From positions 1 through 40,223 of IMG/VR virus record IMGVR_UViG_3300044712_000853: a stretch of 40,223 bases of DNA, one strand, 5' to 3'. This DNA comes from a virus. This document shows, piece after piece, positions 1,431 through 28,386 of the stretch. Made by a program: the position numbers and the translations under genes. The notes below the pieces were generated by a model. The model had not been told where the DNA came from and ran no database searches. It saw only the letters and a program-made list of their open reading frames with translations. How positions within the stretch are numbered: the first letter of the stretch is position 1; each line of letters starts with the position of its first letter.

Positions 1431-3152
1431 ATGCTCAGATATATTTACGCTGACAAGAATCCGTTAACTTTAACTGTTGGCGGCATTATCAAGTCTTATG
1501 TCATTAATCAAATTATAGATTATGAAGACCAGGATTACATACTCGCCAGGTATCCAGATAGGATAAGAATTATAGAAGAGGGGCCTAAGGGAAATGTTGG
1601 GCCGACTGGACCTACCGGAGTTATGGGTATTAGAGGAACTACTGGAGCAACTGGGCCTCAGGGACCGTCAGGCGGTCCGCTAGGACCTACGGGACCGCAA
1701 GGTCCTCCGGGCTATGGACTTGATGGAAGTCAGGGTTTTCAAGGCCCGATTGGAAGAGTAGGACCAATAGGCCCCACTGGAGAGACTGGGCCTACCGGCT
1801 TAACAGGACCCCAGGGAGATCGGGGCATAATGGGGTGGGATGGTCCCACCGGCCCACTCGGACCGACTGGATCTACGGGTCCTAGAGGAACAACTGGAAC
1901 CACAGGATATGTAGGTCCGACAGGACCTACGGGTGTTGGACCTACTGGCCCGGCTGGCCCTACGGGGTCTAGAGGATTTTTAGGCCCGTTAGGGCCAACA
2001 GGCCCACTGGGGCCTACTTCTACGGAACTTGGTCCTATGGGAAGAACTGGCCCAACTGGACCTCAAGGAAATCCTGGCGGGCCTGTTGGACCCACTGGAT
2101 CAACCGGACCTCAAGGAGAGGTAGGGCCTCCTGGTCCGAATATTGTCTACTCTCCTGATCACTTGCCTCTTGATTTTACGTGGGTGGATACGACTACCCT
2201 TCGTATTAGACGGGGCAGATACTATCGAGGAGGTCATAAGTGGCGAGGTAAATATCAAGATCTTACTCGAATAGTTAATTACTGGGATATTCCTGCCGAC
2301 TTAACCGTTAACGTATTTGGTACTTATAGTGAGGGGGATACTTCTGGGTTATTAGGCGGGGCGAAGGCGGTCAGTACGTGGTACTCGGTTTTCCTTGTAG
2401 GATCAACTCAAGCTGACGTTCTTGTACTCCCGTTTATCAGAGTCAAGTCAGCATCAGTTAATGCGGGCCGCACTACTGTAGCATTAGGAAAGAATGATAA
2501 CAGCATTACATCAGAAACCTCCCTTCTTCTTTCTAATGGTCTTTGGAACAACTACAGACTACTTAAAGTATCTGATGATGCTGCGGATGGAACCGTTCTT
2601 ATCATAGAAAATTCTATTAACGGGACTCCTGATGATACAATAACAGTCTTTGGAGACCAAGTTACTGCCGGAGCAAATCTAGTCGCCGGTAACTGGTTAC
2701 AGATGTTGCCTAAAACAGGTACTGATTGTTGCTACTTGGGTGTTATAAGAGTCTATGTTGACGGTTCTCTTCATTACTTTGCTAAGTCAGGCGGAGACTA
2801 TGTACTTCCAACAACTTGGATAAGCGGAAACCTATCTGCATCTCCAGGCAATACCTTTATAGGTACGGCGGTGCCTCCAATTGCTGTGGAAGCGTCTCTC
2901 ACCGTTAAGGCATCAATAACTAGCCCAACGTCAGGTCAATATGCTGTGTGTGACCTATTTGCCGGTGTTACCGGCTCTCTACTTTCGGCCCAGCTTTATT
3001 CCCCAAACACTGATGCGACACAGAGCGTGACGTGGAATTTATCGAGTGTTTGTCAAATAAGGAACCGCTTCTCCAAATTTACTCAACCTCTCAATACCTA
3101 TGAGCCAGCGACTACAGGAACTTTCCTTGTAGGTGGTTTCCGGGAGTTGTAA
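1431..3152 (+). CDS. Collagen-like fibre protein with shared N-terminal docking domain
   Basis: 573 residues. Residues 1-48 carry the shared docking domain ([14 protein letters not shown], then [11 protein letters not shown]). Residues 51-237 are a long Gly-X-Y region dominated by GPTGPTG, with a few phase breaks (around GYGLDG, GVGPTG, STELGP) that would act as flexible points in a triple helix. Residues 238-573 form a beta-rich C-terminal domain with threonine- and glycine-rich strands, typical of phage receptor-binding heads, but I cannot assign a family. The gene starts 15 bases after the previous stop, with an AAGGAAAG site, so it is cotranslated with its neighbour. Threonine in the Y position of the triplets is the usual composition in phage and Bacillus exosporium collagens. 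The function as a tail or head fibre is inferred. Confidence 0.82.
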
Positions 3153-3155
3153 AAT

Positions 3156-6100
3156 ATGGCATATAGATACTCAAGCGACACTTCTACGCGGATACAGCGT
3201 GCAGGAAACATCAGAATTTATAGCCGGGGAGATATTATTGATCCAGTTGATGAATCTTATATGCTGGAGCATTATTCTGGCAGGATTCAGCAGATTAGAC
3301 CTGATAACGTTATACCTACAGCAATCTCATCTTCTCCAACCGGTTCTGGTATTACTAGTGCCGCTGACGTATTTTATACTCATTCCGAACTCCCTTCAAT
3401 TACTAATGTTAAGCAATTTTGTGACTATACTCAACAAAATCTATTAAGAGAGGGGCCTACGGGTCCCCAGGGTGCTAGGGGCAATATCGGTTATCAGGGT
3501 CCACAAGGTACTCGAGGTTTTGATGGAAACTACGGAGAAACCGGTCCCGAAGGTGCCACAGGTGTTCAGGGACCGACTGGGGCTCCTGGAGTGGTGGGAC
3601 CAACAGGTCCTAGCGGAGCCCGAGGCGCAACTGGGCCTAGCGGAGGTCCCTTAGGCCCCACAGGGCCTACAGGGGAAGGATTATTAGGTCCGACTGGACC
3701 GACCGGAATCGGGCACACTGGACCAACCGGAAGAGTTGGGCCGACAGGTTTTCCTGGCCCGCAGGGATACGACGGTCCTACAGGAATGCAGGGCTGGATG
3801 GGAGAAACTGGGCCTACCGGGCCTACTGGATACTTTGAGACCACAAATTTTCCGTTCACATCGGGGTTTACCGGTCCGTTGCCGGATGATAAAATTCTTC
3901 GGCCAATGATGGCAATGAGGCTACCCAGGAATGCTATATTTGATGGAATGAACCCGGCTCTTCTGGGTGAATTTAGAGCCACTGCAGACGTTGGAAATGC
4001 TGACGGCGCTGGTGTCGCCGGATACTCAGACGTTAGAAGCGGCGGCAGGTTGTATCAAACATTCGGAGGATATTTTTACACAGTAATCCGAGACGGTGGA
4101 ATCATAGACGGTTTTGAGACACTTGGGAGTAAGTCGAAACTTAAGATGGAGTCTGGCTCCGCGGTCTTAGTAGACCACCCAGAGGCAATAGTTAGTGGTT
4201 TTAAGGCCGAGTTAGAACTCCTCAATGGCTGGAATAATACAGGAAACCAAGTTACTACTGTCATCGAAGCAGCCTCTAATGTAGGGACCCCCAGATCTCT
4301 CTATGGCGGTAGGGGGTTAGCACAGTTTGGGATAGACCTCTCTAGGGCTGAGGTAAGTGAAGTTGTCCGAGGAACGCGATCCTTTGACACCACACCTCTC
4401 TTAAATACCCCGTTTACCAGAATCTCCGATGAGCATAATGTCACGGAAAGATTAACAGCGGGAGAGTTTTCGAGCCTTTATCTTCGGAAACAGTCTGCGA
4501 TAGACCTTACTGATTCTATATTGTCGTGTGCAAATTTTTATACTGAATTACTAGACGGCGGTATTTTTTCCTCCGCTTATGGTTCTAGGTCTTATCTTGT
4601 AGTTCGAGACGGGTCTCAGTCTACACAAGAGATAGCGGGATCATCAAATTCCGTGGTTGTGGAGGGGGGTTCTACAGTTGTAAGCGGTAATGTGGCAGCC
4701 TCAACCTTTGAAGTAGTCCTTCAGACTGATTCTATCTTAACAGGTGCTACAGGAGAGGTTGTTACAGGTCTCAAAATCAACGTTTCAGATGACGGGGCAA
4801 ATAAGGATGATTTTGACGGTAGAGTAACTGCCGTAGAGATAGCGGGAACGTCTTTTGATTCTGTGGAGAAGATTGTCGGGGAGGCGATTAGTTCGATCTA
4901 TGATTTATCTGAAATCAACGCTCCTATTGGTCTTGATTTTAGGGGGTCCACTACGGATGTTCCTTTACAAATGATTGAGGGGTCTGTGCTAGGTTTCGGA
5001 GATTCTATAGCAAGTGATAATTACGGGTTCAGAGAGAACTCCGGTATGGTAGAGGTCAGACATTTCGGAGAAGATTGGCACGAAATTCCTATTAGTGGTC
5101 AGGTTATCCAAACGATATACGTAGATCATAATAGAACAGATATTTATGAGTCATCAGGGAGCGAAGATAAGCCATACACGACTTTAGGAGATGCTTTGGA
5201 TAGCATATTGGATGCTTCATCTTCAAAGATATATCTTGTGAAGATTGTGTCTACGGAAATCTCTACCGAATCTTCTTTAACCGTGCAGCCCTTTGTGATA
5301 TTGCAGGGCAATTCAAAATCCACCATTCTTTCTGGGTGTGATATAGCAATGGCTACCGTTGCAGGGGATAATCTCCAGTCTTTTTGGTTTGAAAATCTAA
5401 CCTTAATAGGAGGGTCGGTTACTCTGAGCAGGGTGGGTCACAATCAGGACACCTACAATTCAGATCACGCCGCGGGCTCCGCTTTCGTAAGCTTCGTTAG
5501 GTGCGATATACAATCGCCTATCACATTTGACGGACAGTACGCTGATTCAGATACTTTAGAGATAAAGAGCAGTGAACTAAGTGAAACATGTAACATTCAG
5601 GGCGGAACTTTGAATTTCATATCTTCTATGCAACATAGTGACACCGTATCATTGACTGATCCGACCGGGTCTGATCCTGAGGCAAAGACGGTAATGAACA
5701 TTTATAGTTCTTCACTCAAAGATACTGTTTCTGTTGGTAGTAATTGCTTCTTGAATTATGATTCAGTATCTGACCCATCGGTGTGGGGCGGTAGTATAAC
5801 TGGGGCAGGAACGGTGAGCCGAAACTTAATTCAACCCAATACGCCTGTTATGCCTGAAGGCTCAGGAAATTACCACGTCGATTTTTCTAACTCGACTGCG
5901 TCTGTAGCCCCTGTGAGGTATAACAGTGATGACGTGACTGATCCAGGATCAGCGTCTGGTTTGGGGTACTATCCTAGAATAAACTATTTGCCGGGATCTG
6001 TTCCTGGAATTTTTAATACAAAGTGGCTAAAGATTGACGTAGGAGGTAGTGCTTATTACGCCCCACTATTCAGTTTGACAGGACCCACTTGTCCAAACAT

Positions 6101-6236
6101 TCTCGGACCTACTGGTCCTACCGGACCACAAGGTGTTACTGGAGCAGAAGGACCTACAGGAGCACAGGGACCCGCTGGATCTAATGGAAACGTTGGGCCT
6201 ACCGGACCTGTGGGACCGACTGGTCCGACTGGTTAA
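3156..6236 (+). CDS. Large collagen-like fibre with beta-helix-like domain and C-terminal collagen tail
   Basis: 1026 residues. Residues 1-48 are the shared docking domain ([16 protein letters not shown], then SGRIQQI). A linker follows, then a collagen block at about 100-225. Residues 226-640 are beta-rich and repetitive in style (alternating GG and V/I strands). From about 648 the sequence [20 protein letters not shown] followed by [11 protein letters not shown] matches the entry strand of pectin-lyase-like right-handed beta helices common in phage tailspikes, continuing to about 900. After about 980 the chain returns to Gly-X-Y and stops on GPTGPTG directly before TAA, so there is no globular tip after the second collagen block. 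The start overlaps the end region of the previous gene (3 bases between them). The role as the longest fibre or spike of the cassette is inferred. Any polysaccharide-binding or lyase activity is speculative. Confidence 0.8.
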
Positions 6237-14321: not shown

Positions 14322-14804
14322 ATGCCAGAAACATCTTCAGCCTTTCTTGGGAAAATGGAGCCTGTCTTTCAATGGGCATTCTTTGTCATCATTGAAAAGA
14401 TAAATCCTTTGTATAGATTTATGGCTACGGCGTCTCTTCCCAGCGTTACCTGGGAAGTGGCAGAGTCCGCTTATTTCTTTACCACTAGAAAATACGCAAG
14501 CCGTTTCACGTTGAATGAGCTGAGTATCTCAATCAAAGACTACGTTGATTCATCAACGGCAGCGCAGGTTTGGAACTGGTGGTTACTCGTCGGCGATGCT
14601 AGGGCAGGACAACTGAATCCGCCTAGTACATATAAAAGCGATGGCGAGCTTTGGTCTACTGATGGACGCGGTAATCCCGTAGATAAGTGGAAACTGGAAG
14701 ATTGCTTCCCCAGCGCGGTGGAGTTCGGAGACTTGGATTATTCAGGAACCGACATGATCATGATGAACGTTACGCTAACGGTTGATATGGTCTACCGCAT
14801 GTAA
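14322..14804 (+). CDS. Tail tube protein, paralogue 1 (T4 gp19 family; probably the major tube protein)
   Basis: 160 residues, the usual length of gp19-type tube proteins. Typical segments are FQWAFFVIIE near residue 15, FMATASLPSVTWEV at 33-46, SIKDYVDSSTAAQVWNWW in the middle, and the C-terminal WKLEDCFPSAVEFGDLDYSG followed by strands. Proteins of this family stack as hexameric rings to make the inner tube. It is one of three tandem copies. It is the best expressed by sequence: AGGAGG site, ATG start, own hairpin before and after. I therefore infer that it makes most of the tube, with the two others in special rings or lower amounts. Confidence 0.9.
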   Translation: MPETSSAFLGKMEPVFQWAFFVIIEKINPLYRFMATASLPSVTWEVAESAYFFTTRKYASRFTLNELSISIKDYVDSSTAAQVWNWWLLVGDARAGQLNPPSTYKSDGELWSTDGRGNPVDKWKLEDCFPSAVEFGDLDYSGTDMIMMNVTLTVDMVYRM

Positions 14805-14809
14805 AAGTG

Positions 14810-14854
14810 TTTGGGGGAGTAAACAACCTGAAATGGCTTATTTACTCCCCCGAA
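14810..14854 (+). terminator. Long hairpin after first tube gene
   Basis: A 14-bp stem with one G-T pair (14810-14823 with 14841-14854, core GGGGGAGTAAA/TTTACTCCCCC) and a 17-base loop that begins 6 bases after the stop. No T tract follows (GAACCCG), so strict intrinsic termination is uncertain. It may be a 3' stability element that raises the level of the first tube mRNA above the downstream paralogues. Confidence 0.6.
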
Positions 14855-14883
14855 CCCGATATCTATAAGAAGCGAGAATATAA

Positions 14884-15363
14884 TTGCCCTCATCAGCGAA
14901 ATTAGGTAAAGAGGAGCCCAGTTTTCAGTGGGCGTTTTATGTGGTTCTTCCGACGCTTGGAGAGGGGGCTCAGTTTTATGTGGCTACGGCATCTCTCCCA
15001 AATGTTACGTGGGAAATAACTGAGGTACCTTACTTTTCTCAGAAGAAGAAATTTGCGAGTCGTTTCAATGTTAACGAAATGACTTGTGTTCTCAAAGATT
15101 ACGTTGATTTTGGGACTGCCTCTAAGGTATGGCAGTGGTGGAATACCGTAGGAAATATTGAAGCAGGAACTGTAGAAGAGCCTGGTAAGTACAAAAAAGA
15201 CGGTATGATGATGAAATGTAATAGTCAAGGCGAACCCGTGACTCAATGGAAACTTCAAGGGTGTTTCCCTAGTGCTGTGGAGTTTGGAGATCTTGATTAT
15301 TCTGGAACAGACATTGTTCTTATAAGTGTAACATTAACAGTAGATAGGGTCATAGCGGAGTAA
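14884..15363 (+). CDS. Tail tube protein, paralogue 2 (T4 gp19 family)
   Basis: 159 residues, clearly homologous to the preceding gene along its whole length (LGKEEPSFQWAFYVVLP, FYVATASLPNVTWEI, LKDYVDFGTASKVWQWW, FPSAVEFGDLDYSGTD). Translation must start at TTG (14884): an in-frame TAA lies directly upstream, and the N-terminus aligns with paralogue 1 from that codon. The TTG and the poor upstream site (AAGCGAG) suggest lower output than paralogue 1. Probably a minor tube component, such as a specialised ring at one end or an interleaved subunit. Inferred, not proven. Confidence 0.88.
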   Translation: MPSSAKLGKEEPSFQWAFYVVLPTLGEGAQFYVATASLPNVTWEITEVPYFSQKKKFASRFNVNEMTCVLKDYVDFGTASKVWQWWNTVGNIEAGTVEEPGKYKKDGMMMKCNSQGEPVTQWKLQGCFPSAVEFGDLDYSGTDIVLISVTLTVDRVIAE

Positions 15364-15367
15364 TCCA

Positions 15368-15847
15368 ATGGTTCAGATGATACTCCCTGACAAGATAGAA
15401 CCAGCATTTCAGTGGTCTTATTATGTGGTTTTTCCCAATATTCTAGGTGAAGATTTGGCTTTTGCGGTGCTTTCTACCAATCTTCCGAAGATAGAATTTG
15501 CCGTTTTGGATATAAATTGTAAGAATAGACAAAAGACAATAGCGGGTCGTCAGAATAAATCTCAGTTCACAGTTATGCTACGCGACTTTGTTACACCTGA
15601 TATAGCGGCTATGTTGTGGACATGGAAGAAGCTAATTTCACCCTCAGTAGGAATCATTAATTCCCCATCGAGATATAAAGTAGATGCTAAATTTAGAGTA
15701 TGTAACGGTAGGGGGGAAGATGTTCAAAAGTGGGCCTTAAAAGGGTGTTGGCCCTCATCGATAGAATTTGGACAGACTGATTATAGTGCCACAGACGTTA
15801 TTCAGATGACTATGACACTGGAGTCAACCGAAGTAGAGATGGAATAG
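15368..15847 (+). CDS. Tail tube-like protein, paralogue 3 (divergent T4 gp19 family)
   Basis: 159 residues. It keeps the family frame (EPAFQWSYYVVFPN, FAVLSTNLPKIEFAV, MLRDFVTPDIAAMLWTW, WALKGCWPSSIEFGQTDYS) but is the most diverged copy and more basic, with KNRQKTIAGRQNKSQ in the first half. The start ATG lies 4 bases after the previous stop with a GGAG site inside the previous gene. A diverged tube-like protein next to the major tube is often a tube initiator or baseplate-proximal ring (the roles of gp48/gp54 in T4 are filled by tube-like proteins), so that role is a reasonable hypothesis. Confidence 0.82.
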   Translation: MVQMILPDKIEPAFQWSYYVVFPNILGEDLAFAVLSTNLPKIEFAVLDINCKNRQKTIAGRQNKSQFTVMLRDFVTPDIAAMLWTWKKLISPSVGIINSPSRYKVDAKFRVCNGRGEDVQKWALKGCWPSSIEFGQTDYSATDVIQMTMTLESTEVEME

Positions 15848-17581: not shown

Positions 17582-17614
17582 CAAAATAAGACTTCGTACT
17601 AAGGAGTAGATACC

Positions 17615-18406
17615 ATGAGTCTTGATAAAGCCTATCGTACCCTGGAGTTGCCTTCAAGAGGTCTTCTCTATGATGACAAAATCCCTAACGGAGAGATCAA
17701 AGTCAAACTGTGGGATACCTCGATTGAAGAGCTGTTTCTTGGCGGCGGCGAGTCCCCGTCAAGTCTTATAACCGAGGTCCTAAATCGCTCGCTCGTTCAG
17801 TGTCCTATCGACTCTAGCGAGATGTTGAGTGGTGACCGTTACTATGCCTTTTTTATGTTGAGGGCGGAATCCTACGGGGATGAATATGGGTTCCCTCTGA
17901 AGTGTTCGAACTGCGGTTTACAGTTCCGTCACGAGATTAGTCTAGTTAAAGACTTGAGTGTTATAGAACTGCCTGATAGCGCAAAAGAACCCTTTAAGCT
18001 GGAGCTACCTTATTCGGAAGAAACTCTTGAGTTTCGTCTCCTGAGGGGAAGTGACGAAATAGCAGTAGATAAATTCCTTGACAAGATATATCGGTCAAAG
18101 GAAAAGGGCGGAAAGAAATTTAGAGGCGGCGGTATACCTGACATTGCTGTCAAAAAGGGCGTAGACCCCTCTTATAAGTTTCGTCTGGCGAGACAGATCG
18201 TGAGCGTTAACGGAAGGGCTTTGGAGTTTGATGAGGCTCTTGAGTGGGTAAGCGGTCTTATGGCTCGAGACGCTCTTGAGTTTCGTAGGGCAGTTGATAA
18301 GCTGGATCCTCGTCTCGATATGAGGATAGTAGTCGAGTGTCCTCGTTGTGAGTTTAATAACGATACAATGCTCCCTTTCACGCCAGAGCTTCTGTCCCCC
18401 CGATAG
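17615..18406 (+). CDS. T4 gp26-like baseplate hub / tail assembly protein (zinc ribbon)
   Basis: 263 residues. It matches the T4 baseplate gp26 family pattern: N-terminal LPSRGLLYDDKIPNGEIKVK, a helical part (ELFLGGG and following), a CxxC pair at C97/C100 (KCSNCGLQF), and a second CxxC at C242/C245 (VVECPRCEFNND) followed by TMLPFTPELL. The two CxxC pairs make a likely zinc ribbon. In T4, gp26 is a hub-assembly factor. In this position, just before the tape measure, related proteins act as tail assembly chaperones. The gene ends in a C6 run followed by CGA TAG, and the next reading frame is open across this stop in the -1 frame, so a second, longer product is likely. A good AAGGAG site is present. 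Confidence 0.88.
   Translation: MSLDKAYRTLELPSRGLLYDDKIPNGEIKVKLWDTSIEELFLGGGESPSSLITEVLNRSLVQCPIDSSEMLSGDRYYAFFMLRAESYGDEYGFPLKCSNCGLQFRHEISLVKDLSVIELPDSAKEPFKLELPYSEETLEFRLLRGSDEIAVDKFLDKIYRSKEKGGKKFRGGGIPDIAVKKGVDPSYKFRLARQIVSVNGRALEFDEALEWVSGLMARDALEFRRAVDKLDPRLDMRIVVECPRCEFNNDTMLPFTPELLSPR
18395..18406 (+). promoter_or_regulatory. Probable -1 ribosomal frameshift site
   Basis: The last codons of the gp26-like gene read TCC CCC CGA TAG, giving six consecutive C at 18396-18401. A tRNA-Pro on CCC (18398-18400) can re-pair perfectly one base back, and the stop codon lies one codon downstream, which promotes slippage. After a -1 shift, reading continues CCG ATA GAA into the next frame. I did not find a clear downstream pseudoknot by eye. 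Confidence 0.7.
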
Positions 18407-19164
18407 AAAGCGGTGATGATCCTAGAGAGGATATCAGTTTAGCGCTTTTTCCTAAAGGGGATTGGCAAGCTCTTACCAGACAAATCTTTGAACTCGTGCG
18501 ATACGGGCATTTCGGTTACGAAGAAGTAATGGAAATGCCCATCTCCATGAGACGTCGGCAGCATTTTCTTCTCGTGAGATATACCGAACGAGATAATGCT
18601 GTTCGTAACGGTAAAACTGCGCCTCCTATCGAGATGGAAGACCATCTAAGGGAAGTGGGGCAGAATTTACCTCAACTTCCTGCTGATTTGCAAAAACGTA
18701 TGCCAAATGATTTTATAGAGTCATTGAATCAAAAAATACCTCCTCCACAGAGGCCGCCGGAGAAGAAGGTAGCTCGAAGTTTGCTCGACCTAGTTGAGCA
18801 AAAAGCCCCTAAAGTGATAGATAGAGTATCTCAAGGACCTCCAACTAAAGAGGCGTCTAGACCGGAGACTCCTCCATCTTACCCCGGTCAGTTCTCAGTA
18901 AAAAATCTTATTGAGAATCGGGGGGCGGATCCTTCAAAGAGAAAGGAGACTTTACCGGTTTTTGACACGCTAACGGATACTGCGAAGCAAAAGGAAGAGG
19001 CACTACCCCCACAGATAAGGGCAGCGCTCCAAAAAATGAGACAAGAAGAACAGGCTGCGGCGGAGTCGGGTGAGAAAAAACCGGGGCTCAATATGGAACC
19101 TAAGAAACCGCCCAAGAGAGACGTGCCCAAAGCACTTCAGGATCTCTTGAATCAAAAGAAGTAG
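18400..19164 (+). CDS. T4 gp51-like / assembly-chaperone C-terminal frame, reached by frameshift
   Basis: This frame is open from 18361 to TAG 19164. The conserved part begins before any start codon: GDWQALTRQIFELVRYGHFG, then YEEVMEMPISMRRR, the pattern of gp51-type hub-assembly proteins (a helical unit with a V-M-x-M-P-x-x-M-R-R core). No ATG, GTG or TTG occurs before GTG 18496, which lies inside the conserved helix. So the natural product is probably a fusion with the upstream gene: 262 residues plus 254, about 516 residues. Residues after the conserved core are Pro/Lys/Glu-rich and disordered, with short hydrophobic helices (VARSLLDLVEQ, FSVKNLIEN, PKALQDLLNQ). A short product starting at GTG 18496 (222 residues) is the alternative. 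Confidence 0.75.
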   Translation, partial: PIESGDDPREDISLALFPKGDWQALTRQIFELVRYGHFGYEEVMEMPISMRRRQHFLLVRYTERDNAVRNGKTAPPIEMEDHLREVGQNLPQLPADLQKRMPNDFIESLNQKIPPPQRPPEKKVARSLLDLVEQKAPKVIDRVSQGPPTKEASRPETPPSYPGQFSVKNLIENRGADPSKRKETLPVFDTLTDTAKQKEEALPPQIRAALQKMRQEEQAAAESGEKKPGLNMEPKKPPKRDVPKALQDLLNQKK

Positions 19165-19245: not shown

Positions 19246-22200
19246 ATGCCAATTCCTCCAGAGGGCTTCACATCTGATTACGCTAATGCATCGTTCGGGA
19301 ATATGCTTAGGCAGCGCGGTAATATGGGCGGTGTTAGAGGGGGCGGCGCGGCTGACCAAGCAAAAGCAATGACTCAAATGGCTCGGGGTATGAGGCAGTC
19401 AACAAAGGCTACCGAGTCTTTTAACACCGCTCTTGAACAAAGTTCTAAAGCTACTAAGAAATCCAACGAAGCAATGGTAGATTTGAAAGAGTCAATTAAA
19501 AGGGCTCGAAAGGAGATAAGCTTAACCTCAGATCAGATGGAGATTATGACGAAGAAGGGGCTTCGTTTCAATAAGTCGGGACGACTCTACTACGGTAAGG
19601 GGGCTGAGAACGCTGGAAAGTTTGCCAAGGCATTTGAATTATACGGTACTGGTCTTGAGAAGTTCACAAAATCTGTGAAAGAGACTACAAAACAAACAGG
19701 GACACTCGCTTCTCAGACAGGACAAGCCGCAGGAGAGGCGGGTAAGGCGGCTGGTAGTTGGTCAAAACTTAGGGGGGCTCTAGCTTCAATGGGATTGGCA
19801 AAGGTCAAGACGGACGTCGATCAAGTAACGCAATCTACTGCCAACCTAGACAAAACTACAGCAGGTCTGGGAGAGCGATTCAAGAATTTTACTGGTCGCT
19901 TGTTTCAAAGTGTTCTCACTCTACGAGTACTCACCGGAGCCGGTCTTGCTGCCGCGGCTTCTATTGCCGCAATCCATGAACAAGACAGTATAAATAAACT
20001 CAAGCAAATGACAGACCAGTTTGACACCTTAACTACCCAGGTTGATGAATTTGGTCGAAGTCTCTCCGCTATTAATGTTGATAGATTAGAAGCATTTAGG
20101 ATAGAGACTGCTAAATCGGCAATGGCTTTGGGAGTTGAAGTCAGTGAGCTTCGACAAAAAATTGTTGAGACCGGAAAGATGTATGCTGTTCAGGAAATGT
20201 CTAATAAAGGTCTCCAAGAACTTGTTAAAACTCAAATTATGATGGAGAAAGTGACCGGGGTCTCTGCCGAAGAGCTTGGTCATATGATGGGTATCTTGAC
20301 AAAAATAGGAAATATTAAGTGGGAAGATACCACCGATGCTGTCAGGGAGATTGGAAGCGCCCTTTCAGATTTTTCCCGTTCAACTGGCGTAACCAAGGAG
20401 ATGTCACAGACATTACAAAAGCAAATCTCTCAATTAAGTTTAGCTCTAAATCCTAAGAACCCCAATGACTATAAAGATGCTATGGTTAATATGACCAAGG
20501 AAATAGCATCTACCGCTAAGGCTTTTTCTAAACAGGGGTTTGGGAGTGTCTTTATCGCGTTTAACGAGGATCTTACAAAGGCAGCAGAAGGAAACATGGA
20601 CGCTATCCAGCGTATGGTAACTCGTTCGATGGGAAAGATAGGTTTTGAAGATATTATGGATTCTTTAGAGTCCGGAACTGGGATGAAAAAACTATTTGCT
20701 AAGCAAGCTGAGGGTATCCAAGACTATTATAAGACTCTTGACGGTCTCCGAGAGCCGCAGAAAATAGGACTTATTATGGAACAGTTCGGTTTGTCAGCCG
20801 AGCAGGCACGTAAGATGATCAGGCTTAATGTCCAGGAGGCGATGAATGATGCTGAAAGATACGAGAAGAACTTCGCGAAACTTGAAAAGACATTTGAAGA
20901 ATTAATGAGCACTTGGACAGAACAATGGAATAAGATAAGTGCGGCAACAAAAATGTTTATGATGACTATCGGATCACCGATTATAGAATTCTTACAAATA
21001 CCTCTAAAGATGGTTGCTTCTACTCTTGAGTATCTTGTTGGAGCATTTGTTGCTTTGCCAAAGCCAGTTAGGGTATTGACGTCTGCGCTGGCAGTACTCG
21101 GTACTACTTTGATGTTAGTTGGTTTTAATCCAATGGTACTAGGTATTGTAGCCATAATTTCAGCTATCGGGGTTCTGACTCTTACATTTAAGGATCTTTA
21201 TGGGTGGGTGACAGAAAAGTTTCCTGGTGTCGGGACTACTTTTAAGAATATTGGAGATGTATTTAGGGGCGTTTTTGAAAATATTAAGTCTGTTGCTCGA
21301 GGTACTGTTGAGTGGGTTGTCAGTTTTTTCGGCGGAGATCTCGTTGATAAGGTGGCGGGGGATTTAGAGCGAGCAAAGAAGTTTTGGGCTGCTCCGTTTG
21401 AGGGATTAAAGCAGTGGTGGGGTACTCTCAAAACATCTATTATGTCTTCTAATATATGGGAACCGTTAGTAAAAACTTGGAATGCTGCCATCACTGCCAT
21501 TACAGGTTCATCTATTTACAAAAAAGTTTCAGAAATTTGGTCGTCTATATCTAACTACATTAAGACAAATTTTGGCGGTACCGTTGCAGCCATAGAACAG
21601 ATGTGGGCTTCTGCAGTATCACTCTTTTATAAAAGCGTGGACTTCATCAAGGGTATGGGGTCGGCTATCGGTGATTTAGCTTCTGATCTTAAGAAAGTTT
21701 TTACGGGGATTCAGGGAGATCCGGGTAAGGTCCTGGATGGTATGTACAGTGCCGTTATGAAGTTTGGATCTAAGATATCTGAAACGTTTAGGGGGTATTT
21801 GACTTCAATATCTCAGACGGCACAGGGAGTCGGCGGCGCAATTTATTCTTTCTTTTCCGGATTGGCGACTGGTGTAGTTGCATTCTTTGAGCGACTTATT
21901 CCGTCCCTCAAAGACTTTGGTTTATTAGAGCGGCTTACCTGGATGGGCCGTATGATTAGGTCCTTTTTTGAAATTATGCTTGCTGACTTGACTGGGGTTT
22001 GGAGGAGGTTCAAAGAAAGTCCTCTAGAGGCTGTAAAAGAAGTGGCTTCTGCAATAGGAACCTTTTTACAGCGAGCGTTTAATATTATTGTCGAAGGTTT
22101 CTCTAAGAAAAGTCTAGCCACAGGAATCACGGGGGGTATTATCGCGGCGGGTGCAGAGATTACGTCTGCTATCATCTCCCCGTTTAGAAAAGCAGTTGAT

Positions 22201-25200
22201 TGGGTAAAAGAAAAAAGCGGAATCGTAGGAGCCAGCCCCTCGGCGGTAGGTTTAGGTATTGTGTCAGGTATTACTAGTATTGCCGGTAGGCTTTTTTCAG
22301 CGCTTATGAGTCCCTTCAAACTCTTAGCCGGGGCAGTTTCTGGTCCTATCGGATCAGTTCTTAAGATTTTAACTTCAGCCTTTTCTAGGATTGCTACTCC
22401 GCTTGCCTCTCTTATTATGTATCCATTTTCATTGTCTATGCGATTATTGGGCGGGATACTGCCTGGTATGATAGGTTCAACCGTATCGACTGCAGGTGCC
22501 GCTGGAATGAAGATGGCTGCTCCTGGATTGATGACCTCGATCTTATCTCCATTTAAGATGGCGTTTTCTCTTCTCACTGGAGCCCTTTTTCCTGCTGCTA
22601 TGTTATTACTTGGTGTTATTGGTTACAAGTACTTGAAGAAGACAGAGTGGGGTAGGGGAATTGCTGACAGTATTGATAAAGGTCTTGAAGTAGCTAGGGG
22701 TCTTCTTGTCTCTTTCTGGGAGGGGCTGAAAAAATTACCTGTCATAGGGCCTGCCTTGACAAAGATATCCGACTATTTGTGGAAATCATTTGAGCTTCCT
22801 CTTAGTCGCGTTAAACTCTTGTTTGGTTTCCTTAGTGACTATTTGGTAGCTGTTTTCACCAAGTCTGAAAAGGAGGCTGATGGAGCTTTACAGGGGATTA
22901 AGGTAGCTATAAATATGCTCGCAGGCTTTAATGTATTCACGGAGAAGTCCTGGGGTCAACGTCTCAGCCAAGCCTTTTCAGATGCTCTGGCGTGGGCTGC
23001 GAAACAGTTTCTTGCTATTGTAGTTAAGGGCTTTTTATTAATCCCGGCGCTAGTTTATAAAGGTTTACAGGCTGTAATTAGTTATCTCCCTAAATTATTG
23101 TGGAATATGTTAAAGGGACTCATTAGTGGTCTCGCTTCTATTCTTAAAGATATCCCAATTTTAGGAACCATAGTTTCAATTATAGAGGCTGTTGCATCCG
23201 CTTTTACTTATGTGGGAGAAAAAATTGCAGAATTTACTAAGACGAGCGCGGTCCTAGGTTTTGTATGGGACAATATTGCTAAATTTATAGCCGCGGGAGT
23301 TACTGCTCTCATTGCTTGGAAATCAATAAAGTGGTTAAAGGAGCGAGGAAGTTTAACAGGTAAAGAAGAGTGGGAACCTAAGGGGGGAATCGTAAAGGGG
23401 TTGATGTCAAAAATCCCTGGCATTGGAGGATTCTTTAAGGGCGAGCCAATGGCGGTACGCGTTGTTGAGATAAGTCCTAGAGCTGCCGCTGAGATGGGTT
23501 TAGGAAGAGGGGGAAGAGGAGGCGGTCCTGAGCGCCGAGGAATGTTTGCCGACGAACGTGAGTGGTTAGAGAGAAAGAAGGCCGAGGGCGGAAGGGTAGG
23601 TCGAGCAATTACTAGGGGAGAAGAGATATATGCGTCAGGCCGAGAGCAAGTTGTTAGAAGAGGTGGAGAATTATATTCTACTGGAGCAGCGAGGGCAAGA
23701 GAAGGAGTTACTAGGGCTGGGGAACTGTATGCTACTGGTAGAGAGATGGGAGTAGGCGGTGTCATTGATAGAACCAAGCAATTTTTTGGATATGGACCTC
23801 AAACGCCAGCCGATGCTGCTAGGAGGCGGCAAGATCTTATTAACGCTCAGGGCGTGGAGTATGGTGGAAGGTATCAACCATCGCCAAGAACGACTCCCCC
23901 AGTAGATACGAGATCGGAGTTTAGACAGTTAGTAGATAGAGGAGTCGGAGCAGTAAGAGAGCGTGCAGGTGCTGCGGCTACGGGTGTTCAAGACCTATAT
24001 AATAGAGGCGCATTAGAATTTGCTAGGAGAACTATAAGTACTGATACAGCGGCAGGGAGACAGCAAAGGATTGAAGCCGAAGGTGTTGCATATGGCGGTA
24101 GATACGCTCCTGCTCGTCCTGCTCCGGTTGTTGAGCCCGGTGTAATATCGAGAACAGCGGACCAAGTAGGTGAAGTCGGGTCTCGGCTTCTCAGGGGTGT
24201 TCAATCTGTCAGCGGAAGAGTTCAGGCAGCGGTTCAGGAACCTTTTGCTGACGCTCTTAGGAATATAGCGGTTTGGTTGGGGCGGAGTCCCTCTGAAGTA
24301 GGGCTACGGATTCTTCAGGGTATTAAGGCTGTTGGGCCTATGATAACTCAGAGCCTCAAACAGTCTTTTGACGCTGCGAGTGGTTCAGTAGAGTCTGTTA
24401 AAGGTAAAGTATCGGATATTAAGGCGGGAGCTAAATCGCAAGCCAAGGCAGTGTCTACCGCTGCAACAGATATGGCCCGAACCGTTAATGATAAGATGAC
24501 GTCTTTTGCTACTTCTTCTACCCAAGCAGTTAAGGATACATTTGACCCTAATCGTCAGGGGTGGGCAAAGAGGGCGTTATCAGCCGTTTCTAGGGGAATG
24601 ACAACTGTTGGAGGCGGTGTTATGGGAGCAATGGGGCTTCCAGGAATGGGCGGTTTTCCTGATGCTCCAATGATGACGACTGTTGGCGCACCTGGATCGC
24701 CTGGCGCTCCTGGCGGAGGGCGGGTACGTCGTTTTATGGGTAAATACGGAGGAATTGCGGCCAGTGCAGGATTAATGGGCGGGACGTTTTTGCTCCCGAG
24801 GTGGTTAGATAAGAAAAAGGAAGAAGAAAACAAATATAATGAAATGTTCGGACTCCAGCCCCAGCAGGAAAGCTTGTTTAGCGGCGGAAATATGGCTTTA
24901 ATGGGGCTTGAGATGCTTCCTATGTTTATGGGGACTGGGCTGTTTGGCGGCGGGGCGGTTCCCACTCCTGGTGGAATTGCTGAGGGGGTAACCGGAGCGG
25001 CTCCAGGTGTCAGAGGTCCTGGTATGTGGGAGCGTGCGAAAGGTAAAGTCGGCGGTTGGTTTGGGCGAGGAGCAACCGCTTCTGTGCCTGATTTAACCAC
25101 TGCTGCCGGAAGACAAGCCTATATCAATGCTCAGAACATGCAATACAGCACCGGTGCTGCGGCACCTGGTGGCGCTAGACCTGGACTCCTCAGTCGTTTA

Positions 25201-28200
25201 CGGGGAGGAGGGCGTATCGGCGGAATTTTATCAGGCGTTGGGGCCGCTGCCAGTATGTTACCGTTCCTAGGAGGAGGCCGAGAAGCAACTGGAACAGACC
25301 AGGCATTAGCGGCTGCACAGGTAGCGCAAGCTGGGGCAGGGACAGCACAAGCAGGCGGAGGGTTACTTAGTAAGATCGGCGGCTGGTTTGGGAGAGGCAC
25401 AGCCGCAGCGGGAGAAGCTGCTAGCGGTACTCTTGGTAAGGTTGGTGGGTTTCTGGGCCGAGTTGGGGGTAAAGTAGCGGCACCTATTGCCGGTTTGGTT
25501 GAAGGTGTGATGGGCTATAAAGAGGCCAAAGATGAGGGTAGAGATACTGCCGGAGCATTACAGCGGGGGGCCTTAAAAGGCGGAGGGGCTCTGGCTGGAG
25601 GCTTGGCGGGGGCTAAACTGGGGGCGCTATTAGGAAGCGTGGTTCCTGGGTTGGGAAATGTTGTTGGAGGAGTTGTTGGGGCTATCGGAGGTTCCCTTAT
25701 CGGAGCGTTCGGAGGCGGAAAGTTGGATAAGTGGATTCAGGACAACAAAACTTGGCAACGGATCAAAACAGGAGCAGGGGAGATGTGGGATTGGATAAAA
25801 GATAAGGCTGGAAAATCATGGGCCTGGATTTCCGATGCAGCATCCAAGTCTTGGGATTGGATCACGAAAACCGCAGGTGATGCGTGGGATTGGATCGTTG
25901 ATATTGGAAGTTCTGTGTGGGATACGGTCGTAAGTATTTGGACAGATACTATTGGGTCTTTTTGGGCCGGGCTTAAAGAGGGTTTTTGGGATACGTGGAA
26001 ACCGATTTCTGAAGCGTGGGCCGGTTTGAAACAAGCCTTTTCTGATCTTTGGGTGGCGATTAGTGATCTCTTCGGAGGCAGTAACGCTGCTATGGAATTT
26101 CAACAAACTGGTGCAGCGGTACAGGGAGTTGCCAAAGAGTCAATTTCGATTTTTAAGATTCTTGGAGATGCCATAAAGTGGTGGTTAGGTACATTCAAGG
26201 AACTCTTTTCCTATGCGGCCCCGGTAATCAAGACTCTCGCTAAGATAATTGGAACGGTCTTAGGCGCTGCAATCTGGATTATCGTTAAGGCACTCACGTT
26301 TGTTGTTAATCTTGTTAGAAAAGTAGTAGCGGCTTATGATCGGTGGATTGAGATGGTTGGTGAGGTGTGGAAGATTGTTTTTGATTTCTGGGACGGTGTA
26401 AAAAAGTGGGCGTCTGATTGGATGTCCTGGCTTGCTAGTGGAGTCAAGAAGATTTGGGGCTGGTTGACTTGGCCGTTTGTAAAAGCGCGGGAAACTATTA
26501 GCGGTATATGGGGAGATAAGGGGGATATAGCGTCATTTCTCTTTGGGGACATAAAAGATGTCGCGAGTAATGTAGTCGGTTTTCTCTTTGAGCCATATCA
26601 AAAGGCTTGGGACAAGATAAAAGAACTCTGGAATGCCGGTGATCTCTTCTCCTTCCGGGGACTACGTGATGTAGTAGGTGCATTCTTTGGGGTGTGGGTA
26701 GACCGCTTCAAGTCTCTGAGAGACGTTATCGCTAAGTTCGGAGCCTTCATATGGGAGAAGATATCCTATCCATTTAAAGTTGTTTGGGACTGGTTTGTGA
26801 AGGTTAAAAACTACGTGTATGATCTATTTTCTCCGTTGACTTCTGCGGTCGAGGCTATCTCCGATAAGATAATGGAATACGTCAACAAAATAATTGAACT
26901 TTACAACAAGGTTAAAGGAATAAAAGACTCTCTGCCTTGGCCTATGGGGTCTGGAAAAGCACAGCAGAAGCAGATAGACCCGTCAGCATTCACAGGAAAG
27001 AGTCTAGATGAAGTCCGTAACACGCTGATGTTTGATTATAAATATGCCGGTGCAGATATTGATAAAATGATAAGGGATATACGGCGACAGTTTGGAGAGG
27101 GAATATCAGACTCTGACATAGCAGTAAAACTAGCTGAGCAATTACAGAAGGGGGCTATAGACTCAGGTGCCGTGGCTAATTCTCCTTCCCCTATGGCGCT
27201 AAACATCGCAAAAGGTATCCAAGATGCAGATAAACCAATCTCAGAAGCCTTAAGTAATGCTCTTCAACCAAACGGGACATCAGTAGCTACTCTATCCGGT
27301 CCCCTTACTGCGATGGAGCAACAGTTCGGCAAGTACATTGATACAGCGAGAAAAGCCTTCAGGGTCGTAATGGTAGCTGATTTATCCAAGCTTGACATAG
27401 AGTCTGCACTCCAGAATTTGGAGCGAGGAGGAGCAACGGATGAGAATATTGACCGTTCGGTAGAAGCCATCTCGCAAGCAGCAGGCTATTATAACGGACG
27501 ATGGGACGTTACTCCAGAGTTGTCGAAGCAAATTTCGAGACATAATGAAATGTTGGGTAACAATGCCGTAGACCTTTACCGACAGCAAACTCAGAACACA
27601 CTAGAGGGGATTAAGGCCGGTACCGCTATGACAACTGGAGGCGTCACTTTAGACGAAGCTATAAAGACGGCTGGCCCGATGTCTAGTTTTACTGAGGCTG
27701 TTTTGAAAGACCCGACCTTAATAGAACGAGGAGCGCAGGGTCAAAAAGAGGCTTTTATCAATAAGTTTGGTGCAGATGAAGGGCTAAGGCGGTATGCTAA
27801 TAGAGGCATGACAACCATGTCGGATCAGGATGTGACATCTAAAGCATTTTTTAGTCTAACTCCGGAGCAAGCGAAAGAATACACGCGGTGGGCTCAGGCT
27901 GGAGCGACTGGGGCAGTTCCGGAAGCAATGGCGAGGGCAGTAGAGGCTGCTAAGATGCAGGCAGATGCGCAAAATGCTGTGGTTGCAGAAAATAGAGCAG
28001 TCATGGCGTCTGCTTCTCCGACAATGGCTACAGCAGTAGCCTCCGGTGTTGTACCGGCACCTGCAATGACGTCGGTAGCTGGAAGAGACCTCGGAACAAC
28101 TACTTTAGGAGCCGCGCAAGCGGCACCTGCCACTCAAGACGCTGGCTTTAATAGAAGAGAATTTGGTGAAACCAGGGTGGGAGAAGCCGGACCAAAGACT

Positions 28201-28386
28201 GTTAGGGTAGAAAATCAAGAAGAAGTTATAAAGACACTGAAGCTTATCTATAAGGCGCTAGGCATCAAGTTTGATACGGATAGAGATCCTGTTAACCAGT
28301 TTAACCAAGTTGATTCCACTATGGATGAATATCGAAAGTCAGTACTCCAGGATAATCGAGATTTTTCTATCCAAGGTGGAAGATAA
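19246..28386 (+). CDS. Tail tape measure protein (3046 residues)
   Basis: A very long protein that sets tail length and lies inside the tube before ejection. It has the usual features: long helical stretches in the N-terminal third, several hydrophobic segments (about residues 224-246, 609-650 and 1114-1130), Trp-rich repeats at about 2180-2280 (MWDWIKDKAGKSWAWISDAA and following), and a glycine-zipper segment at about 2109-2162 (ALAGGLAGAKLGALLGSVVP, then VVGGVVGAIGGSLIGAFGGG) that could insert in the host membrane. Residues about 1400-2110 are Gly/Arg/Ala-rich with internal repeats. I see no lysozyme or peptidase motif. At 0.15 nm per residue, a rule derived from other phages, the whole chain would span about 457 nm. 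Excluding the Gly-rich part gives about 350 nm. The start at ATG 19246 has an AGGAT site. Confidence 0.93.
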   Translation: MPIPPEGFTSDYANASFGNMLRQRGNMGGVRGGGAADQAKAMTQMARGMRQSTKATESFNTALEQSSKATKKSNEAMVDLKESIKRARKEISLTSDQMEIMTKKGLRFNKSGRLYYGKGAENAGKFAKAFELYGTGLEKFTKSVKETTKQTGTLASQTGQAAGEAGKAAGSWSKLRGALASMGLAKVKTDVDQVTQSTANLDKTTAGLGERFKNFTGRLFQSVLTLRVLTGAGLAAAASIAAIHEQDSINKLKQMTDQFDTLTTQVDEFGRSLSAINVDRLEAFRIETAKSAMALGVEVSELRQKIVETGKMYAVQEMSNKGLQELVKTQIMMEKVTGVSAEELGHMMGILTKIGNIKWEDTTDAVREIGSALSDFSRSTGVTKEMSQTLQKQISQLSLALNPKNPNDYKDAMVNMTKEIASTAKAFSKQGFGSVFIAFNEDLTKAAEGNMDAIQRMVTRSMGKIGFEDIMDSLESGTGMKKLFAKQAEGIQDYYKTLDGLREPQKIGLIMEQFGLSAEQARKMIRLNVQEAMNDAERYEKNFAKLEKTFEELMSTWTEQWNKISAATKMFMMTIGSPIIEFLQIPLKMVASTLEYLVGAFVALPKPVRVLTSALAVLGTTLMLVGFNPMVLGIVAIISAIGVLTLTFKDLYGWVTEKFPGVGTTFKNIGDVFRGVFENIKSVARGTVEWVVSFFGGDLVDKVAGDLERAKKFWAAPFEGLKQWWGTLKTSIMSSNIWEPLVKTWNAAITAITGSSIYKKVSEIWSSISNYIKTNFGGTVAAIEQMWASAVSLFYKSVDFIKGMGSAIGDLASDLKKVFTGIQGDPGKVLDGMYSAVMKFGSKISETFRGYLTSISQTAQGVGGAIYSFFSGLATGVVAFFERLIPSLKDFGLLERLTWMGRMIRSFFEIMLADLTGVWRRFKESPLEAVKEVASAIGTFLQRAFNIIVEGFSKKSLATGITGGIIAAGAEITSAIISPFRKAVDWVKEKSGIVGASPSAVGLGIVSGITSIAGRLFSALMSPFKLLAGAVSGPIGSVLKILTSAFSRIATPLASLIMYPFSLSMRLLGGILPGMIGSTVSTAGAAGMKMAAPGLMTSILSPFKMAFSLLTGALFPAAMLLLGVIGYKYLKKTEWGRGIADSIDKGLEVARGLLVSFWEGLKKLPVIGPALTKISDYLWKSFELPLSRVKLLFGFLSDYLVAVFTKSEKEADGALQGIKVAINMLAGFNVFTEKSWGQRLSQAFSDALAWAAKQFLAIVVKGFLLIPALVYKGLQAVISYLPKLLWNMLKGLISGLASILKDIPILGTIVSIIEAVASAFTYVGEKIAEFTKTSAVLGFVWDNIAKFIAAGVTALIAWKSIKWLKERGSLTGKEEWEPKGGIVKGLMSKIPGIGGFFKGEPMAVRVVEISPRAAAEMGLGRGGRGGGPERRGMFADEREWLERKKAEGGRVGRAITRGEEIYASGREQVVRRGGELYSTGAARAREGVTRAGELYATGREMGVGGVIDRTKQFFGYGPQTPADAARRRQDLINAQGVEYGGRYQPSPRTTPPVDTRSEFRQLVDRGVGAVRERAGAAATGVQDLYNRGALEFARRTISTDTAAGRQQRIEAEGVAYGGRYAPARPAPVVEPGVISRTADQVGEVGSRLLRGVQSVSGRVQAAVQEPFADALRNIAVWLGRSPSEVGLRILQGIKAVGPMITQSLKQSFDAASGSVESVKGKVSDIKAGAKSQAKAVSTAATDMARTVNDKMTSFATSSTQAVKDTFDPNRQGWAKRALSAVSRGMTTVGGGVMGAMGLPGMGGFPDAPMMTTVGAPGSPGAPGGGRVRRFMGKYGGIAASAGLMGGTFLLPRWLDKKKEEENKYNEMFGLQPQQESLFSGGNMALMGLEMLPMFMGTGLFGGGAVPTPGGIAEGVTGAAPGVRGPGMWERAKGKVGGWFGRGATASVPDLTTAAGRQAYINAQNMQYSTGAAAPGGARPGLLSRLRGGGRIGGILSGVGAAASMLPFLGGGREATGTDQALAAAQVAQAGAGTAQAGGGLLSKIGGWFGRGTAAAGEAASGTLGKVGGFLGRVGGKVAAPIAGLVEGVMGYKEAKDEGRDTAGALQRGALKGGGALAGGLAGAKLGALLGSVVPGLGNVVGGVVGAIGGSLIGAFGGGKLDKWIQDNKTWQRIKTGAGEMWDWIKDKAGKSWAWISDAASKSWDWITKTAGDAWDWIVDIGSSVWDTVVSIWTDTIGSFWAGLKEGFWDTWKPISEAWAGLKQAFSDLWVAISDLFGGSNAAMEFQQTGAAVQGVAKESISIFKILGDAIKWWLGTFKELFSYAAPVIKTLAKIIGTVLGAAIWIIVKALTFVVNLVRKVVAAYDRWIEMVGEVWKIVFDFWDGVKKWASDWMSWLASGVKKIWGWLTWPFVKARETISGIWGDKGDIASFLFGDIKDVASNVVGFLFEPYQKAWDKIKELWNAGDLFSFRGLRDVVGAFFGVWVDRFKSLRDVIAKFGAFIWEKISYPFKVVWDWFVKVKNYVYDLFSPLTSAVEAISDKIMEYVNKIIELYNKVKGIKDSLPWPMGSGKAQQKQIDPSAFTGKSLDEVRNTLMFDYKYAGADIDKMIRDIRRQFGEGISDSDIAVKLAEQLQKGAIDSGAVANSPSPMALNIAKGIQDADKPISEALSNALQPNGTSVATLSGPLTAMEQQFGKYIDTARKAFRVVMVADLSKLDIESALQNLERGGATDENIDRSVEAISQAAGYYNGRWDVTPELSKQISRHNEMLGNNAVDLYRQQTQNTLEGIKAGTAMTTGGVTLDEAIKTAGPMSSFTEAVLKDPTLIERGAQGQKEAFINKFGADEGLRRYANRGMTTMSDQDVTSKAFFSLTPEQAKEYTRWAQAGATGAVPEAMARAVEAAKMQADAQNAVVAENRAVMASASPTMATAVASGVVPAPAMTSVAGRDLGTTTLGAAQAAPATQDAGFNRREFGETRVGEAGPKTVRVENQEEVIKTLKLIYKALGIKFDTDRDPVNQFNQVDSTMDEYRKSVLQDNRDFSIQGGR
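23809..25180 (+). repeat. Internal repeats in Gly/Arg-rich region of tape measure
   Basis: Three spaced copies of one unit occur in the tape measure: RRRQDLINAQGVEYGGRYQP (about residue 1526), GRQQRIEAEGVAYGGRYAP (about 1603) and GRQAYINAQNMQYSTG (about 1956). The motif is R-Q-x-x-I-x-A-x-x-x-x-Y. A second unit, K-V/I-GGWFGRG, occurs twice nearby (about residues 1932 and 2044). These look like short binding or structural repeats in a disordered segment. Confidence 0.6.
25780..26080 (+). repeat. Tryptophan-rich repeats in tape measure
   Basis: About 100 residues with Trp recurring at a spacing of roughly 11: MWDWIKDKAGK, SWAWISDAASK, SWDWITKTAGD, AWDWIVDIGSS, then looser copies (VWDTVVSIWTD, FWAGLKEG, TWKPISEAW). 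This matches the 11-residue W/F periodicity known in tape measure proteins, consistent with coiled packing in the tube. Confidence 0.7.

Follow-up and report, generated by a model that had tools for sequence, protein, structure and literature searches.

The gp26-like gene of the window (the whole stretch of DNA analysed, 40,223 nucleotides long, a 40-kb virus record with a contractile-tail module) very probably encodes a frameshifted T4-type tail assembly chaperone (TAC), from which a short form (TAC-N) and a long form (TAC-NC) would be made. Judged by its sequence, it is a divergent member of the T4-type TAC-N/TAC-NC kind that has already been published. The features that enter into this reading are the following.

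14322-15847, + strand: three tail-tube-like genes in tandem, about 160 aa each, upstream of the gp26-like gene (phrog_4542/phrog_45)
17601-17606, + strand: strong Shine-Dalgarno sequence AAGGAG, upstream of the gp26-like gene
17615-18406, + strand: gp26-like gene (TAC-N), 263 aa, a member of the T4_baseplate family; two CxxC pairs
18361-19164, + strand: open stretch of the -1 frame, C-terminal extension (TAC-C), predicted to be reached by frameshifting
18373-18379, + strand: C CCT TTC, canonical X XXY YYZ -1 slippery heptamer, read as CCT TTC in frame 0; preferred candidate site
18385-18475, + strand: RNA structure predicted by folding (-34 kcal/mol, about 5 nt past the heptamer), suggestive only
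18396-18401, + strand: C6 run, P-site CCC to CCC; second-choice candidate site
18404-18406, + strand: TAG stop of the gp26-like frame
18478-18606, + strand: conserved gp51-type domain, RQIFELVRYGHFGYEEVMEMPISMRRRQHFLLVRYTERDNAVR
18607-19161, + strand: Pro/Lys-rich tail of the extension, probably disordered and absent from most relatives
19246-28386, + strand: tape measure gene, 3046 aa, immediately downstream of the second frame (phrog_1272 and phrog_58, E about 1e-39)

The gp26-like protein matched PF12322 (T4_baseplate; E = 1.3e-9, 38.5 bits, cut-off 24.5) and the 'baseplate hub' family phrog_150 (E = 3.9e-10). Its AF2 model had a pLDDT of 85.9, and a fold search with this model in the PDB retrieved no solved fold resembling it. 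The gene order was found to be sheath (PF17482 match), three tube-like genes, four small genes, gp26-like gene and tape measure, and the placement of tube, TAC and tape measure genes is as in SP-15, LIS04, immuto and Mel-JY01. This synteny and the architecture of T4 gp51 (see below) support the tail assembly chaperone role that the initial annotation had suggested from the position just ahead of the tape measure gene. With 3046 aa, the tape measure protein is very long, which suggests a very long tail. Matches to collagen-like tail fibre families were also observed in two adjoining genes (1431-6236).

The gp26-like ORF terminates in CTG TCC CCC CGA TAG. A TAA at 18358-18360 bounds the -1 frame upstream and a TAG ending at 19164 closes it, while 17 and 19 stops were counted downstream of the junction in the other two frames. 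When the bases were shuffled, the -1 stretch stayed open in none of 20,000 trials. The first ATG, GTG or TTG of the -1 frame is GTG 18496, located inside the helix, and none precedes the conserved domain; no Shine-Dalgarno-like sequence was detected before GTG 18496. The near-starts upstream of it in this frame are ATA 18403, ATC 18433 and ATC 18484. The end of the gp26-like gene, the extent of the -1 frame and the position of the GTG within the helix had all been described previously, and each was confirmed from the sequence. In order to assess the second domain, a profile was constructed from 228 homologous segments, with the window left out, and run against the six frames of the window. The -1 ORF was matched with E = 3.3e-8, the next best match having E = 1.1. 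A match to a profile free of the window indicates that the second frame is protein-coding and homologous to a domain that other phages have in this position, in agreement with the conserved gp51-type helix originally annotated there. The extension comprises 254 aa in the window, that of most relatives being much shorter.

The same family was recognized in T4 itself. PF12322 matched two RB43 genes, T4 gp26 (E = 8e-65) and T4 gp51 (E = 2e-53), the last as far as residue 201 of 249; the C-terminal surplus of T4 gp51 aligned with the shifted domain. A first, narrower helix profile gave no match to T4 gp51; a broad domain profile scored 13.8-15.1 bits on the C-terminus of T4 and RB43 gp51, compared with 7.3-11.0 for the best of 1000 shuffles. 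By these alignments, T4 and RB43 possess two paralogous genes, 26 for the short form and 51 for the long form, with the domain as an in-frame tail. The apparent exception of T4 is resolved by the paralogy of genes 26 and 51, which had been published before. The TAC genes of T4-like phages were reportedly identified by Vladimirov, Gautam and Davidson in 2022 (Virology 566:9-15), in a study whose abstract is said to name genes 26 and 51. According to passages in later articles, short and long TAC genes are separate in some T4-like phages (PMC10885494, citing Vladimirov et al. 2022), and poly-T -1 sites are present in TAC-N genes of T4-like phages (PMC12846349, citing Vladimirov et al. 2022). A frameshift joining gp26-type and gp51-type frames had been regarded as unfamiliar in the initial annotation, but T4-type TACs made by frameshift or from separate genes have, by these passages, been published. 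The window gene resembles them in its PF12322 short form, its C-terminal domain, its place and its logic. The T4-type systems have a -1 poly-T shift in several T4-like groups and separate genes 26 and 51 in T4, whereas the window has no poly-T and carries C CCT TTC or C6 instead, together with the 254-aa extension and about 25-32% identity to relatives. Outside the cyanophage-like group, these relatives mostly shift in +1.

T4 gp26 and gp51 are listed as hub assembly chaperones, gp51 being absent from the particle (PMC3004832). Cyanophage gp51 has been described as a shortened stand-alone gene without the first ~200 residues of T4 gp51 (Sullivan et al. 2010, PMC3037559), and it is similar only to the C-terminus of that protein. 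By the sequence pattern found here, it is instead the same second frame and would be a -1 extension of gp26, which explains the missing residues. In S-PM2, the -1 frame (L280 2220-2393) is annotated as a free-standing gp51 starting past the gp26 stop, and similar small stand-alone calls after gp26 were seen in other T4-like records.

Homologues were collected by tblastn and pattern scans from phage isolates, two viral contig sets, some bacterial MAG contigs and a T4-like set. In the surveys apart from the T4-like set, the domain was out of frame at the gp26 end in 155 distinct loci, and the +1 frame held it in 145 of these. Inside the open overlap, every one of the +1 loci (145/145) has TTT in frame 0 with T or C as the next base, against a background of 227 in 35,947 codons of the gene body (0.6%). 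The commonest +1 site was TTT TTT TGG CC (119 loci), and the variants TTT CTT TGG, TTC TTT TGG, TTC TTT CGT and TTT CTA retain +1 re-pairing. No ATG, GTG or TTG lies ahead of the domain in 51 of the +1 loci, in 7 of which the +1 frame opens just 2 nt ahead of the T run. As stop-start overlaps of the ATGA or TAATG type cannot place a gene in +1, frameshifting is the natural reading of these loci. Two other routes were rejected for this class: a -2 shift, since TTT CTT TGG, TTC TTT TGG and TTT CTA re-pair for +1 only, and transcriptional slippage, since the site variants interrupt the T run. No earlier report of a +1 class in gp26-type chaperones was retrieved by a literature search that had most subscription papers outside its reach; the large +1 class and the direction flips within one chaperone family appear to be new.

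In the cyanophage-like loci of the T4-like set, the domain was in -1 in 82/82 distinct loci, with the slip sequence T TTT TTC in 81 and T TTT TTT in one. T TTT TTC was also found in the isolates S-PM2, BUCT608, S13, CC2 and Vibrio D482. A further clade, named here after L062 (L062, L092, L093, L094, L096, L097, L099 and L100), holds the domain in -1 with A AAT TTC in 8/8. A perfect X XXY YYZ heptamer is present in all 90 of the other -1 shift-type members of the two surveys (82 cyanophage-like, 8 of the L062 clade), its second codon being UUY throughout and UUC in 89. Comparison with the shift sites of relatives supports the -1 programmed shift that had been suggested to join the gp26-type protein to the gp51-type domain. 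The base before TTT at the FF codons was T in 82/82 cyanophage-like loci, over six codons for five residues, and in only 3/144 of the +1 class, versus about 35% T at comparable codons. Selection on this base seems to run in opposite directions in the -1 and the +1 class, related sequences not being independent.

Other arrangements were observed among the homologues. Twelve T4-like loci have no ATG, GTG or TTG start for the domain. In many T4-like homologues, an ATG follows the stop within a few bases, so that reinitiation may contribute to their expression. TAATG overlaps stand in place of T TTT TTC in Cygsa01 and Dickeya phiDP10.3. In LR756511 (L007 4780-4800) and Dickeya phiDP10.3 (L288 2305-2310), the same domain is seemingly expressed from TAATG, a third solution. 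Separate genes, which the initial annotation had set against a fusion, were seen among the homologues as TAATG-coupled ORFs and as the paralogous genes 26 (short form) and 51 (long form) of T4 and RB43; T4 gp51 is an in-frame fusion. The homologue comparison that it had proposed upheld a domain out of frame accompanied by a slip sequence, but the frame was mostly +1.

Within the -1-open overlap of the window, C CCT TTC is the only in-frame X XXY YYZ heptamer (Y = A/U). Some heptamer of this form is expected by chance in about 6% of stretches of 15 codons, so C CCT TTC alone is not proof of a slip site. Its counterparts in relatives, A AAT TTC and T TTT TTC, likewise lie close to the end of this gene, and 16 nt lie between C CCT TTC and the C run downstream of it. 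Eleven six-base runs of C or G were counted in the window, which makes the C6 run itself unremarkable. The RNA fold of 18384-18487 gave a z value of -2.9, not an outlier along the gene, and an alternative small hairpin (18388-18411) holds the C run in its loop; the larger structure that starts 5 nt past the heptamer also encloses the C run, and folding gave no choice between C CCT TTC and C6. No TTT followed by Y was found after 18358, and the domain is in -1, which places the window outside the UUU-Y +1 class. Scans of viral contigs with gp26 and tape measure peptides yielded no close relatives of the window junction. The closest relatives found, L181 and L182, were retrieved with the sheath as query (94% and 76% identity), and both contigs end before gp26. 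As no close relative of the junction was found, neither C CCT TTC nor C6 is backed by local conservation. Given frameshifting, a slip at C CCU UUC (18373-18379) is the most likely event and is considered probable; a slip at the C6 run comes second and is only a modest possibility, the remainder falling to other sites. C CCT TTC is favoured over C6 since all the other -1 shift-type members use perfect heptamers with UUY as second codon.

The slip on the C run, as initially annotated, is doubtful and was probably misplaced. It would yield the same chaperone by the same -1 shift, through a single P-site tRNA-Pro slip on C6 (CCC, with CGA in the A site, before UAG). Perfect re-pairing of CCC one base back would be possible, the site lies just ahead of the stop as the shift sites do in relatives, and six-base runs count as a -1 motif in PRFect. 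Pro-Arg-stop is moreover found at the same place in GXN1 (CCC CGA) and in parts of the L062 clade (TCC CGR TAR); in this clade, however, that place has only CCC, whereas A AAT TTC is invariant. The A-site CGA would not re-pair on CCG, hence C6 is no X XXY YYZ site, six-base C/G runs are common in the window, and the heptamer is perfect in 90/90 of the other -1 members; this route is judged unlikely.

Alternatively, a separate second protein could be produced by termination-reinitiation at AUA 18403, which is in the -1 frame and overlaps the UAG. Stop-start overlaps are used by the homologues LR756511 (TAATG), Cygsa01 and Dickeya phiDP10.3, but AUA is a very weak start and has no Shine-Dalgarno sequence here, most relatives are in +1, where a stop-start overlap is impossible, and T4 gp51 fuses both parts in frame; reinitiation is thus highly improbable. 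Misassembly of the C run is given just as little weight. With one base fewer, the window would show the +1 arrangement of its relatives (CTT-C at FF), as its neighbours on the gp26 tree do, and with one base more it would show a plain fusion. Short-read sequencing, however, rarely miscounts six-base runs, gp26 as read ends in PR like its relatives, and -1 members exist elsewhere in the family.

In the preferred reading, a frameshifted chaperone, most ribosomes would stop at the TAG, and their product would be the gp26-like short form of 263 aa (TAC-N). A minority would move back by one base close to the 3' end of the gene, leading to a fusion of ~517 aa (TAC-NC) with the gp51-type domain as its last part. 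If the two forms act like lambda gpG and gpGT, TAC-N would cover the tape measure protein and TAC-NC would bring in subunits of the tail tube. The -1 shift of lambda gpG/gpGT is conserved in long-tailed phages (Xu, Hendrix and Duda 2004; reviewed in PMC5009743). As predicted for the window, a short form and a shifted long form are made from a gene that lies just before the one for the tape measure protein, whereas family searches revealed no sequence homology between gpG/gpGT and the window family. A +1 shift is predicted in a tail gene of the archaeal myovirus HSTV-2, and +1 shifts are known in Listeria phage PSA (PMC5009743). Their direction is shared with most of the gp26 homologues found here; in PSA, the shift takes place on CCC, in genes for the capsid and the tail shaft, whereas the gp26-type +1 sites are UUU-U/C.

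A gp26 tree was built from the gene minus its final ten codons. In it, the L062 clade, itself supported at 99, was nested inside +1 rows, and the window was located on a long branch between two +1 sets, its position being uncertain. By the gp26 gene, the nearest relatives of the window shift in +1, against -1 in the window. The tree needs three direction changes, versus 21.4 with shuffled +1 labels. Two separate flips from +1 to -1, one in the window and one in the L062 clade, are likely on this basis, with the placement of the window uncertain.

The second frame is overlooked by annotation pipelines or entered as a truncated 'gp51' or a small hypothetical gene. Many myophage annotations would be corrected by two simple rules, T TTT TTC (-1) and V TTT TTT TGG (+1; V = not T). 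With the window, the T4-type chaperones gain a strongly divergent member; a large class of +1 shifts and evidence for a changed shift direction are added by the survey of relatives. The comparison of the gp26 family represents a natural experiment in which ribosomal slippage changes direction and the product is kept. It appears reasonably probable that, from a +1 majority, the window and the L062 clade switched independently to -1 with new heptamers and the same fused product, the bases of the FF codons being selected oppositely, and that the direction of the shift can thus evolve in an essential assembly protein.
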